This document shows positions 24,250-29,201 of a DNA stretch of 53,882 bases, in pieces (the stretch's first letter is position 1; each line of letters starts with the position of its first letter). Made by a program: the position numbers and the translations under genes. The stretch is from Rhodopirellula sp. (GTDB lineage Bacteria; Planctomycetota; Planctomycetia; Planctomycetales; Planctomycetaceae), in the NCBI GenBank assembly GCA_013203845.1, contig JABMPE010000074.1, positions 1 to 53,882 of the forward strand, in the 5' to 3' direction. The notes under the pieces were generated by a model. The model had not been told where the DNA came from and searched no databases. It was given only the letters and a program-made list of their open reading frames with translations.

Positions 24250-25383
24250 TCACAGATTGACGACGGTCGCGGCTTCGCGCCAGTTGGCGGCGGGGCGACC
24301 GAAGTAGAAGCCTTGAGCGAGTTCGAATCCAAGTTCCCGACAGGCTCCGGCCTCTTCCAGAGTTTCCACGCCCTCAGCGAGCGGAGTGATGCCGAAGTCA
24401 CGCACCATTGCGACCAGTGTTTCGACCATCTTCTGCCGTTTTGGAGAAGCCTTGTGGATGTCCCGCACCAGCGAGATATCAAATTTCAGAACGTCTGGTG
24501 GTACTTCGACGAGATCCAGCATACGAGCCTGGCCCGCACCGAAATCGTCGTAGGCCAGCAGGATATCGAGATCGTTCAGGCCGAGTTGCAATTCGGCCAT
24601 GGCAGCCAGATCAGTGACAGCCGCTTCGTGGATCTCCAGAGTGATTGCCTGATTGGGAGCCTCATCCCGCAGCTCTTCCAGAGAGGCAATCAGGTTGGGA
24701 CTCTGAAGCTCCGTCGGGTGAGTGTTGAGGTAAAGCCGCTGGCCGTCGACCATGCCTGAGCCTTGTCGAACGCCTTCGCGACGACAAACCTCACTCAGTT
24801 CGTTCTCTCGGTCCAGTTGCTCTGCCGTTTCGAACATCTCCCGCGGCGAGGGGAATTCGGCAATCCGGCTGCGAGCCAGCACTTCGAAACCCACTGTCAA
24901 TGCATCGCAAAGTTTGACGATCGGCTGATAAAACGGAACCAGCCCCGTTCCATGAACCAGTTCGTCGAAACCTTCCAGACGCGCTGTCAGATTGTTGCCG
25001 TTCCAGTTGATCGTGCCGCGAGAGTCCTCTTCACATCGTTTCCTCAGTCGAAACTCGACACCACCAAAGTGAATGACATCTCCTTCGCTCAGCAGAGTGT
25101 CCGTACTGATTCGACGGCCATTGACGAATGTACCATTCGTACTGCCCAGGTCCCGCAGAAATATCACATTGGCAGCCTGTACGAACTCCGCGTGGATGCC
25201 AGAGACCGTTGGCCACGAAAGTCGCAGATCACAGCTTGAACGACGACCTGCCTGAAATCTCGACTGGCTCAGCGCGATCTCGCGACTGCGCTCGCCTTCG
25301 GCGACGGTCCCGCACAGATACCACTCCAGTCCATTCAGACTGGTCGCGTTCGGACAAAGAGAATTTGTGGTCACCTGCATCAT
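24250..25383 (-). CDS. FHA-EAL protein, probable c-di-GMP phosphodiesterase
   Basis: 377 residues, soluble. An FHA domain at ~25-115 shows the phosphothreonine-binding pattern: GRRSSCDLRL, VSGIHAEF, LGSTNGTFVNG. An EAL domain at ~145-375 follows with all catalytic elements recognisable: GFEVLAR (EVL in place of EAL), LYLNTHP (Asn), TLEIHEA (Glu), AYDDFGAG (DD), LKFDISLV (Lys) and LAEGVET (Glu), so hydrolysis of c-di-GMP is likely. The combination implies control of c-di-GMP turnover by binding a Thr-phosphorylated partner; no Ser/Thr kinase is in the window. Two adjacent ATGs begin the frame; no clear ribosome site. Confidence 0.9.
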   Translation of the reverse strand: MMQVTTNSLCPNATSLNGLEWYLCGTVAEGERSREIALSQSRFQAGRRSSCDLRLSWPTVSGIHAEFVQAANVIFLRDLGSTNGTFVNGRRISTDTLLSEGDVIHFGGVEFRLRKRCEEDSRGTINWNGNNLTARLEGFDELVHGTGLVPFYQPIVKLCDALTVGFEVLARSRIAEFPSPREMFETAEQLDRENELSEVCRREGVRQGSGMVDGQRLYLNTHPTELQSPNLIASLEELRDEAPNQAITLEIHEAAVTDLAAMAELQLGLNDLDILLAYDDFGAGQARMLDLVEVPPDVLKFDISLVRDIHKASPKRQKMVETLVAMVRDFGITPLAEGVETLEEAGACRELGFELAQGFYFGRPAANWREAATVVNL

Positions 25384-25710: not shown

Positions 25711-27915
25711 TTACTCGTCGTTAAGAAATGCCGGGAGATAGGTTCCCGACGACGTGCCTTCAGCCTCGCTGGTGTTCGCCTCTGCCTCGCGAAGTTGCAG
25801 GTACGATCCGTGTCTAAGCCGGTCTTCGTGATCGTTACCAGCTTCGATGATGACGGCCGATTTCTGAAGGAGGCTTTTTGCGACTACGTTGATGCCGTGG
25901 CATCTTGTCTGGCAAAGGCCGCAGCCGACGCACTTGTCCGGGACCAGCAACGGAGCGAGTTGTCCGGTGCCCTCGATCGGCTGGCCGAGTTCGTTGACTT
26001 CGGTGCCGACCTGGACGAACTCAAGTGCGTCGTAACCGGCGGCAGTGCATTCATCCACGCAGAGCTGGCAGGCCTCGCCGTGAAACGGGAGGCATGTCGA
26101 CTCGTTGATGATCGCGAGTCCCATCCGTGCGTGACGTTTCTCTTCGAGCGGTAGTGCTCGGATCGCGCCCGTCGGACAAACCTGCCCGCAGGCGTTACAG
26201 CTCGAAGCGCACCCCGCCCAGTCGGCATTTACGTGCGGAGTCCACAAGCCTTCCAGCCCCTGCTGAAGGCCGAGTGGTTGCAGCACGTCGCTGGGGCATG
26301 ACTGAAAACACTCGCCGCAGCGAATGCACAGCTGCAGAAACTCGGCCTCGGGCACGCTGCCCGGAGGCCGAACTGGTCGAGGTCCATCGCCATCGAGATT
26401 CGCGCCAAATGACTTCGTTCCCGTCGCTGCCAGGAGGCCACCCAGAACTCCCGAGGCCGTGCCCACGGACGCAGACAGAAAACCTCGTCGTCCCAAAGCG
26501 GTTTCATTGGTGGGCGGATCGTTCTCGATCTTCAGACCGGACACTTCCCAGCGGTCGACAAACTTGATTGCGTGAGTCGGGCAGACTCCGCCGCACGACT
26601 GACAGAAAGTGCAATCGGTCGTTCGCGTGGTGAAGTCAGGTTTGATCGCGTCGAATGGGCAAATCTCGATGCACTTGTTGCAGTTGATGCAGGACGATTC
26701 GACCTTTCGCTCCGTCGCTCGAAACAGGTTGCCGAGTGAAAATACCGCACCGCTCGGACAAACGTACTTGCACCAGAACCGCGGACGAAGCAGGCCGAGA
26801 CTCAGCACCGCAAAAAACAAGGCGATGCTCAAGACGTGCCCGGCATTCATCGGCGGCAACTGGTGCCAGCCGGTCGCCGCTCCCGTTTGAAGCGGACTCA
26901 ACGTGAACAGCAGGCCGCGAGTAATTACCGGAATCGCCGAGAAGATTCCGCTCAACAGCACGCCGCCAAACGCCGCAACGAGAATTCCGAGCAACAGGTA
27001 ATACTTAATGTGAACCCACCAGCCGTCACCTGAGATTCGAAAACGTGTGACGCGTTTACCGATGGCCCAGTCGAACAGGTCAATCAGCGTTCCCAGCGGG
27101 CAGAGGTAACCGCAGAAGCCGCGAGGTACCAGGAAGCACGCGGCAAGAATGATTCCCGCACAGCTCAGAGACCACACCCACGATCGCGATGCGATCCCCG
27201 TCGAAAGGCTGACCAGCGGATCGATGGTGAGAAACAGCTCCGCAGCAACCTGCTCTTTTCGAGACAGATTGTCGGCATAGTGAGACGGCCATGCAGCCGG
27301 ATCGGTCTCGTGAATGGACCAGGGGCCGGGGCTGAGTGAAAGAACGTCAAACGTCAGATCAGGATTATTCAACACGGAACCTTCAATGTTCGATGTTGAA
27401 TTTCCGATGCTGGATGTTCGTCGAACCAGTTCGAGTCTGATCTCGCTGTTGTCGACTGACAAAACTCTGAACATCGCGGCGTCGGAATTCTCGCTCAACC
27501 CCGCCGAGTCGTCTCTGACGAATACCGCCTGCCCGGTCTTAAGTGGCAGCCTCGCTTCAACCGTTGCGTCGGCAACAAGCAGGACCGAGCTGTTTTCGAA
27601 ATCGAAGTCGGCGGGAATCCAGCCGCTCCAGGTTCGAGACGGCGTTGCGCTGTACGGCCAGCATGTCACGAGAAACAGCCAGAGAAACGTGACGAAGCAA
27701 ATGCTCTGGACGCTGCGACGAACCGGCGCTGCCAGCCAGACGGGCCCCATCCATCGCAGGAATCGTCGAAACCAACCACGTTGCTTCGTCGTACGCTCCG
27801 AGAAACACTTCGCCGGAAAAACTCGTCGCGCAGCTCGTGCCAGTATGCCGCTTCGCCGTTCCGGGACGCCCGGCTTTGATGATCGGAGAACGGGCAGGAA
27901 CCAGTCAGCTCGCAT
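25711..27915 (-). CDS. Membrane polyferredoxin, NapH/NosR-like fused to NapG-like ferredoxin
   Basis: 734 residues. One TM near residue 70, a periplasmic stretch to ~240, then TM helices carrying two CxxxCP motifs, FCGYLCPLG (~268) and WCKYVCPSG (~385), typical of NosR/NapH/CcoG-type membrane electron carriers. Two 4Fe-4S sites follow (CINCNKCIEICP, CTFCQSCGGVCP). At ~470 there is a second, internal export-like segment with a twin Arg (GRRGFLSASVG), then four more clusters: CIRCGECFQSCP, CNACGQVCP, CQLCVDEC and CVGCGLCQTRC, the NapG arrangement. It looks like NapH and NapG fused in one chain, moving electrons across the membrane. Its ATG overlaps the stop of the FMN-binding gene (TAATG), so the two are coupled. 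Confidence 0.9.
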   Translation of the reverse strand: MRADWFLPVLRSSKPGVPERRSGILARAARRVFPAKCFSERTTKQRGWFRRFLRWMGPVWLAAPVRRSVQSICFVTFLWLFLVTCWPYSATPSRTWSGWIPADFDFENSSVLLVADATVEARLPLKTGQAVFVRDDSAGLSENSDAAMFRVLSVDNSEIRLELVRRTSSIGNSTSNIEGSVLNNPDLTFDVLSLSPGPWSIHETDPAAWPSHYADNLSRKEQVAAELFLTIDPLVSLSTGIASRSWVWSLSCAGIILAACFLVPRGFCGYLCPLGTLIDLFDWAIGKRVTRFRISGDGWWVHIKYYLLLGILVAAFGGVLLSGIFSAIPVITRGLLFTLSPLQTGAATGWHQLPPMNAGHVLSIALFFAVLSLGLLRPRFWCKYVCPSGAVFSLGNLFRATERKVESSCINCNKCIEICPFDAIKPDFTTRTTDCTFCQSCGGVCPTHAIKFVDRWEVSGLKIENDPPTNETALGRRGFLSASVGTASGVLGGLLAATGTKSFGANLDGDGPRPVRPPGSVPEAEFLQLCIRCGECFQSCPSDVLQPLGLQQGLEGLWTPHVNADWAGCASSCNACGQVCPTGAIRALPLEEKRHARMGLAIINESTCLPFHGEACQLCVDECTAAGYDALEFVQVGTEVNELGQPIEGTGQLAPLLVPDKCVGCGLCQTRCHGINVVAKSLLQKSAVIIEAGNDHEDRLRHGSYLQLREAEANTSEAEGTSSGTYLPAFLNDE

Positions 27916-29201
27916 TATTTCGACCCGTCAGCAAGTGCTTTGGCCGTCGCGTTGATGATCGCTTCGGACGTGATGGTCGCGCTGCTGGTTGCGTCGATTC
28001 CGGAGACGCCCTGCCGCTTCAGAATCTTCTCCGGAGTGTCCGTCAGCGACGAGTAATACTGTTTCTCGCGATGCTGCGTGACTCTCACAGACTCAATCCG
28101 GCCTGCGGCGACGACGACTTCAACATGCACCAGCGCTTCATAGCCGATACTGCTGGCTGTGTATTTTCCGTCGCGGACGTTTTTCGGATCCAGCGTGTAA
28201 AACCGGATCGCCGCGATGCTGGCCTCGGCTCGCGCCTTGTCACGCTTGCGATGAGGCTTATCGGCTTCATTGGCAGGGATTCCGGCGATGGCTTTGCGAT
28301 AGTATTTTTCCGCGTCTTCCAGACGGCCAGCGACGCGGCAGGCGTCACCCGCATAGAGAAATGACGTCGATGCCTGTCCGCTCTTCGCAAACGCCTCGCC
28401 GAGCTTTACGGCTGCATCTGGCTCGCCAAGATCGCCGAGCAGCTTAATCGCGGAGTACGGCTTCAGCTTCATCCTGGCGAGGGTTTCGAGCGCCATCCGC
28501 TTGCTGCCGAGTTTCCAGTAGCAATCAGCCAGAACGACGGCCTGCTGAGGAGCGTCCGACAACTCGTTTTCCAGGCCGGATTGTCGAAACCAGAATGCCG
28601 AGCGCGCGTGATCCTGCAACAGGTTGTGGTACATCGCGCCGAGGGTTCGCATCGCACGCTTCTGAACATCCTTGTTTTTGTTCTCGCTGAGAATGTGATG
28701 CATGAAGCGCACGCCTTCACGCCACTTGTTCGAGTTAGGATTGATCCGGTCCCAGATAAACTGCCCGATGTTTTTCGAACTGTCCCAGGGTTTTGGAGCG
28801 GGAATTGGCCACGCAAGGTCAAGAGTCTTCGGGTAGTTAAGAGGTGTCGCCTCGAACCAGTCGGGCGGAGTTTTTCCTTGTCGATCGATCTCAGCAAGGA
28901 TCTCTTCACGTGACCGTTCGACATTTCCCTCCGACAGAGTCGCGGTAGCCTTACCGGACTGCATGTCGATCCGTTTGCCATCGACAATAATCGCCTTGAC
29001 GCGATCCTTCGGATAACTCCGCTGGATTGTGCGAGTTCCCACCTTCACATCGATCACGACAACATCGCCCGAATACGATTTGATGGTGCCCGTTGCTTTG
29101 GCTCCCGTCGTCAGTTCGACGGTATCCACAGCCCACGAAGCCGCAGGGATCGAGAGGACAATCGTCGCGACGCAGGCGATGTTTCGCAGAGCTGAAATCA
29201 T
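27915..29201 (-). CDS. Exported TPR-like protein with C-terminal FMN-binding domain
   Basis: 428 residues. A signal peptide ends near PAASWAVDT. Residues ~25-100 are beta-rich (VELTTGAKATGTIKSYSG, an SH3/Lsm-like look); ~140-330 are helical repeats resembling TPR or Sel1 (YRKAIAGIPANEADK). An FMN-binding domain covers ~345-428: GKYTASSIGYEALVHVEVVV and DATSSATITSEAI. The SATIT Thr is the position at which NqrC/RnfG/NosR proteins carry FMN through a phosphoester bond; transfer needs an ApbE enzyme, not seen here. Coupled by TAATG to the polyferredoxin, so the pair resembles NosR split in two, with a TPR insertion. GGAG lies 9 bases before ATG. Confidence 0.88.
   Translation of the reverse strand: MISALRNIACVATIVLSIPAASWAVDTVELTTGAKATGTIKSYSGDVVVIDVKVGTRTIQRSYPKDRVKAIIVDGKRIDMQSGKATATLSEGNVERSREEILAEIDRQGKTPPDWFEATPLNYPKTLDLAWPIPAPKPWDSSKNIGQFIWDRINPNSNKWREGVRFMHHILSENKNKDVQKRAMRTLGAMYHNLLQDHARSAFWFRQSGLENELSDAPQQAVVLADCYWKLGSKRMALETLARMKLKPYSAIKLLGDLGEPDAAVKLGEAFAKSGQASTSFLYAGDACRVAGRLEDAEKYYRKAIAGIPANEADKPHRKRDKARAEASIAAIRFYTLDPKNVRDGKYTASSIGYEALVHVEVVVAAGRIESVRVTQHREKQYYSSLTDTPEKILKRQGVSGIDATSSATITSEAIINATAKALADGSK

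Follow-up and report, generated by a model that had tools for sequence, protein, structure and literature searches.

A conserved planctomycete gene pair joining a NapH-NapG fusion polyferredoxin to a TPR protein with a predicted flavinylation site

Two adjacent genes on the minus strand of a Rhodopirellula sp. contig (JABMPE010000074.1; the stretch of 53,882 nucleotides that was analysed is referred to here as the window) encode a membrane polyferredoxin (gene A) and a putatively exported protein with a flavin-attachment domain (gene B). They raise the question of whether the two proteins act together in electron transfer and, if so, between which partners. The original prediction viewed the pair as resembling a split NosR of which one part had acquired a TPR-like scaffold and the other a NapG-like ferredoxin. 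Both open reading frames were found again at the same positions (Table 1), and their junction is indeed the proposed TAATG, a one-base overlap of the stop codon of B with the start codon of A that reads AAA-TAA-TGCG on the minus strand.

Table 1. Positions in the window of genes A and B and of the features assigned to their products
Feature	Positions	Strand	Basis or remark
Gene A: NapH-NapG fusion membrane polyferredoxin, 734 aa	25711..27915	(-)	ORF, profile matches, conservation, AF2
Gene B: predicted exported TPR protein, FMN_bind domain at its C-terminus, 428 aa	27915..29201	(-)	ORF, profiles, conservation, AF2
A: transmembrane helix 1, residues 64-84	27664..27726	(-)	Hydropathy and AF2 helix
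A: CxxxCP motif 1, C268/C272, predicted cytoplasmic	27100..27114	(-)	89/89 conserved
A: CxxxCP motif 2, C382/C386, predicted cytoplasmic	26758..26772	(-)	90/90 conserved
A: two 4Fe-4S motifs, NapH-type cytoplasmic ferredoxin (predicted), residues 409-445	26581..26691	(-)	Profiles, conservation
A: internal twin-arginine GRRGFL (R476-R477) and fifth helix to residue 503	26407..26490	(-)	Candidate Tat-dependent segment
A: NapG-type domain, four 4Fe-4S motifs, residues 530-672, predicted periplasmic	25900..26328	(-)	Profiles, conservation
A: C-terminal peptide YLPAFL (family form YLPDFLK), proposed docking peptide	25723..25740	(-)	After low-confidence linker
B: putative Sec-type signal peptide, residues 1-24	29130..29201	(-)	By inspection
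B: TPR-like helical solenoid, residues 145-332	28206..28769	(-)	Profiles, AF2, Foldseek
B: FMN_bind domain, residues 345-427	27921..28169	(-)	Profile match, 8p2b structural match
B: ApbE flavinylation motif D-x-x-[ST]-[GS]-A-T, residues 403-409	27975..27995	(-)	T409 predicted FMN carrier

When A was compared with the NCBIfam models, NapG ranked first (1.3e-30) and NapH scored high (5e-18), with NosR far behind (5.6e-6; 24.9 bits vs. a cut-off of 1000). The NapH region (residues 231-452) and the NapG region (residues 472-684) reside in one chain, and their scores stay below the curated cut-offs of both models (106 bits vs. 269 for NapG; 65 vs. 213 for NapH). By family, the two halves of A match best to NapG and NapH of periplasmic nitrate reduction, which, unlike A, are separate proteins, have no FMN partner and are linked to NapA. 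As originally described, the chain contains two CxxxCP motifs and six four-cysteine cluster motifs, with a NapG-like part fused to the membrane part and preceded by an internal twin arginine; two of the cluster motifs lie before this twin arginine and four behind it. The 28 cluster cysteines are conserved to about 98-100% among about 90 relatives of A, and R476 and R477 are each present in 89 of 91 relatives. Hydropathy and the helices of an AF2 model (pLDDT 89.6) fit five membrane spans (the first as given in Table 1, followed by residues about 245-263, 299-325, 358-376 and 476-503), and the twin arginine directly precedes the fifth helix of the model. A fold search with the model of A gave no significant match.

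This layout resembles that of the polyferredoxin Q1NSB0 of the delta proteobacterium MLMS-1 (PMC5449189), in which NapH is likewise joined to NapG, five helices are found, the twin arginine stands just before the fifth of these, and clusters are placed on both sides of the membrane with four of them outside. A differs from Q1NSB0 in its coupling to an FMN-TPR partner and in the extra C-terminal tail that many members of its family possess. The reporter-tagged membrane part of the MLMS-1 fusion requires Tat (Tooke 2017, PMC5449189), and reporter fusions have established the use of Sec plus Tat for this family of polyferredoxins (PMC5449189). Judged by its sequence, A belongs to the dual Sec/Tat NapH-NapG polyferredoxins, and Tat export of its C-terminal domain is predicted; TatC is encoded in the host genome. 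Because of the analogy with the MLMS-1 fusion, we infer that the CxxxCP sites and the first two clusters of A face the cytoplasm and that the last four clusters are periplasmic.

The original prediction of an exported helical-repeat protein with a C-terminal flavin domain agrees with our analysis of B. Its hydrophobic N-terminus, which ends in ASWA, is signal-like by inspection; profile searches gave weak TPR matches and a match to FMN_bind (PF04205) at 7.6e-10. When a model of B, built by AF2 from 65 sequences (mean pLDDT 91), was submitted to Foldseek, its middle part matched TPR proteins and its end part the FMN_bind domain 8p2b (TM 0.84 by target, rmsd 1.9 A over 82 columns). The flavin motif reads D403-A-T-S-S-A-T409. 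Both A408 and T409 are present in all 81 relatives, and D403 in 80 of the 81; a loss of the FMN threonine in close relatives, which the original prediction had named as an observation that would speak against it, is therefore not seen. In the ApbE motif as published, D-x-x-[S/T]-G-A-[S/T], it is the final residue that carries the FMN (PMC12052999); B has a serine at the usual glycine position, as have 17 of 81 relatives, with glycine in 49 of 81. Since the motif of B aligns with the published one, T409 is the predicted FMN site, and B would be flavinylated at this residue by ApbE.

An apbE gene (PF02424), for which a search had been suggested, accompanies the pair in many relatives and is also present on other contigs of the host genome. 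It adjoins the pair in 13 of the 66 scanned loci with room for it, which is a minority, and is also located beside the pair in L034, L036, L038, L039 and L047; the three ApbE genes of the host are all situated away from the pair. The host genome also encodes a flavinylated NqrC within an Nqr cluster. Furthermore, two genes after an ApbE-NqrM fusion, it encodes a protein of 737 aa with two FMN_bind and two Fer4_5 stretches (G000:C698, L140:9166-11379(+)), and the host therefore possesses a NosR-like single chain besides the split pair.

Among flavinylated systems, FMN_bind was found on a second gene in 539 of 2465 NapH-like clusters (Meheust 2021, PMC8238504). Placed by the definition of that class from its sequence, our pair falls into the split class of NapH-like flavinylated systems: the gene of a PF12801 membrane protein lies beside an FMN_bind gene, and apbE is a frequent neighbor. 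It differs from this class (PMC8238504) in that A also contains NapG and that a TPR solenoid forms part of the FMN protein. With NosR and PceC the pair shares covalent FMN (predicted in B), CxxxCP sites, cluster motifs and the delivery of electrons to a periplasmic process that would follow from them; NosR and PceC, however, consist of one chain, have neither a NapG part nor a TPR, and work with a fixed reductase partner.

Is the arrangement of the two genes conserved? Scanning GTDB genomes yielded 80 loci; these and the loci collected earlier were examined for the presence of A, B, apbE and accessory genes. In this neighborhood comparison, B was positioned directly upstream of A on the same strand in 57 of the 69 loci with more than 1.2 kb upstream of A, and the two genes often overlap in other loci as well. 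The recurrence of the B-then-A order and of the key residues across several phyla is far beyond chance, and the pair is common in planctomycetes and their relatives. Whole genomes were checked for B in 17 cases, mostly with contigs lacking an adjacent B: a full B was found elsewhere in the genome for L061, L070, L077, L095, L096, L120 and L122, L093 and L094 were left unassigned, and no B was detected in the genomes of six distant fusions (WOR-3, KSB1, Scalindua, Poribacteria, Desulfovibrio and Zipacnadia), which differ from A in this respect (L127-L132). On a quick tree of 87 A sequences, in which long branches were flagged, the presence of B requires one change, on a branch with an SH-aLRT of 99. 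B is present in all 14 genomes of the Planctomycetota sample that contain a close A (E below 1e-60). The identity matrices of A and B correlate with r 0.65 (maximum of 500 permutations, 0.26), a sign of shared inheritance rather than of contact. No further copy of the window's own family turned up among the relatives that were sampled. Contamination of the host assembly is 6%; the nearest relatives of the window's A on the A tree are planctomycete.

Several variants of the arrangement were encountered in these loci. One locus contains a tandem apbE-B-A-B-A array with two divergent versions of the pair (L036:7446-14534(-)), another has two tandem B genes (L038:1664-3870(+)) inside a cluster with the order apbE-B-B-GH62-propeller-small-A, a layout shared by L041/L088, and a B homologue without an adjacent A occurs in a genome with no close A match (G017; L044:9356-10615(+)). 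DUF362 proteins adjoin at least two of the distant fusions without B (L130:2599-3555 and L131:8983-9900), hinting at another use of the NapH-NapG fusion.

As originally noted, nos, nap and rnf genes were not seen among the window ORFs that were listed or scanned, and in the loci of relatives, too, the pair does not lie with any nos, nap or rnf operon; homologues consistently residing in such an operon had been named as a finding that would count against the original prediction. When all neighbors in about 100 loci were clustered, the conserved third gene (a reductase or copper protein) for which a search had been proposed did not emerge, and the only recurrent close neighbors were apbE and, in a few lineages, a GH62 gene. 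Sulfatases, oxidoreductases and other candidates were scattered and not adjacent to the pair. The gene for an FHA-EAL protein downstream of A in the window (24250-25383 (-)) was dismissed as a partner, being kept beside A only in the near relatives L053 and L068, and so was a Virginiamycin-B-lyase-like propeller, which was found with GH62 in one genus only.

We consider it probable that the two proteins work together as a single flavinylated NapH-like module for extracytoplasmic electron transfer, in which electrons would pass from quinol via A and FMN-loaded B to a periplasmic acceptor. Sec would insert the first four helices of A and Tat the fifth, leaving the CxxxCP sites and two 4Fe-4S clusters in the cytoplasm and the four-cluster NapG domain, once loaded, in the periplasm. 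B would be exported by Sec, fold as a TPR solenoid ending in the FMN_bind domain and receive its FMN on T409 from ApbE. Electrons would then leave the quinol pool by way of the NapH part of A, reach its NapG clusters and, upon contact of the two proteins, pass to the FMN of B, which would hand them to a periplasmic acceptor encoded away from the pair. No terminal oxidoreductase is conserved beside the pair, and both the direction and the acceptor are therefore argued from analogy: NapGH acts as a quinol dehydrogenase (PMC5449189), and NapH-like flavinylated systems have been proposed as electron relays (PMC8238504). Quinol as the donor and outward flow are, by this analogy, most likely.

The main rival of this scheme is inward flow, in which a periplasmic oxidase or dehydrogenase would reduce the FMN of B and A would deliver the electrons to the quinone pool. 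Ethanol oxidases occur in some known NapH-like flavinylated clusters, which have been modelled as electron input (PMC8238504), and the lack of a terminal reductase conserved near the pair fits this direction too. However, a conserved dehydrogenase was likewise not found there, and the NapGH precedent is one of quinol oxidation (PMC5449189); we regard inward flow as unlikely.

A use of the pair in the oxidative or redox-assisted utilization of plant or algal polysaccharides is suggested by a GH62-type arabinofuranosidase gene that either separates B from A or immediately precedes A in L038 (3867-4940), L063 (5200-6360), L088/L041 (L088:1524-2486), L096 (8768-9937) and L099 (8743-9906), and thus in at least three planctomycete lineages. 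B occurs in five of 16 GH62 genomes (nominal p 0.0015, uncorrected for kinship). Yet most pairs, including that of the window, have no GH62 gene nearby, the host genome is devoid of any GH62 match, and GH62 enzymes are hydrolytic and not redox-active. Because most sampled GH62 genes lie away from the pair, GH62 was rejected as an essential partner, and we judge this use of the pair to be quite improbable.

The ancestry of A in NapH and NapG could mean that the pair is a dedicated quinol dehydrogenase for the periplasmic nitrate reductase (Nap). A NapA-type molybdoprotein is apparently split over two host contigs (G000:C15:3682-5061 and G000:C266:47-994), and strong NapA matches occur in three other carriers. 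Near-complete NapA-type matches were, however, obtained in only four of 22 carrier genomes, with one exceeding the cut-off, and no NapA was seen beside the pair, which makes such a role very improbable. A split NosR feeding nitrous oxide reductase is largely refuted: the cofactor set of FMN, CxxxCP sites and ferredoxin clusters is the same, and a strong match to the NosZ family, albeit under the curated cut-off, was obtained for one carrier (G310), but none of the 22 carriers reaches that cut-off (TIGR04246, Gp model), 21 are without a strong match, nos genes are missing near the pair, and NosR scores on A far under NapH and NapG. On these searches of the 22 carrier genomes, run with one NosZ model, both NosZ and NapA were rejected as common acceptors. 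What stands of the comparison with NosR is the likeness in mechanism and cofactors; the ancestry is that of a NapH-NapG fusion, and FMN_bind and polyferredoxin, which NosR unites in one chain, are here the products of two genes.

The C-terminal end of A may provide a means of holding the two proteins together. There, a variable linker is followed by a short conserved peptide, mostly YLPDFLK at the very C-terminus; one clade, made up mainly of Pirellulaceae, has DPFG repeats in its place. Among 61 members with a GSY tail, 39 have an ending of the LPDFL form and 14 have DPFG. The tail is absent from the six distant fusions without B (five of which were scored) and from eight of nine members with a divergent B, and it is the part of A that AF2 modelled with the lowest confidence. 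TPR domains often bind C-terminal peptides, and the tail of A may therefore dock onto B. A tethered flavin shuttle is accordingly conceivable, albeit doubtful, in which the TPR of B would capture the flexibly tethered C-terminal peptide of A, with the FMN either held near the periplasmic clusters of A or swinging to the acceptor. The contrasts between tails track the A tree and therefore represent few independent events, so that we put docking forward as a hypothesis.

Collectively, the pair is real and conserved, and it probably constitutes a working electron-transfer module. Each half is already described as a kind, the dual Sec/Tat polyferredoxin (PMC5449189) and the FMN_bind protein encoded by a separate gene (PMC8238504); the conserved two-gene unit ties dual Sec/Tat polyferredoxins to protein flavinylation, two themes that have been described separately. 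The reactions of most NapH-like systems were stated to be unknown by Meheust et al. (PMC8238504). With carriers that include the cultured genera Roseiconus, Stieleria and Rhodopirellula, the pair is a compact target for testing one such NapH-like system, and it yields a specific hypothesis on how its two proteins may dock.
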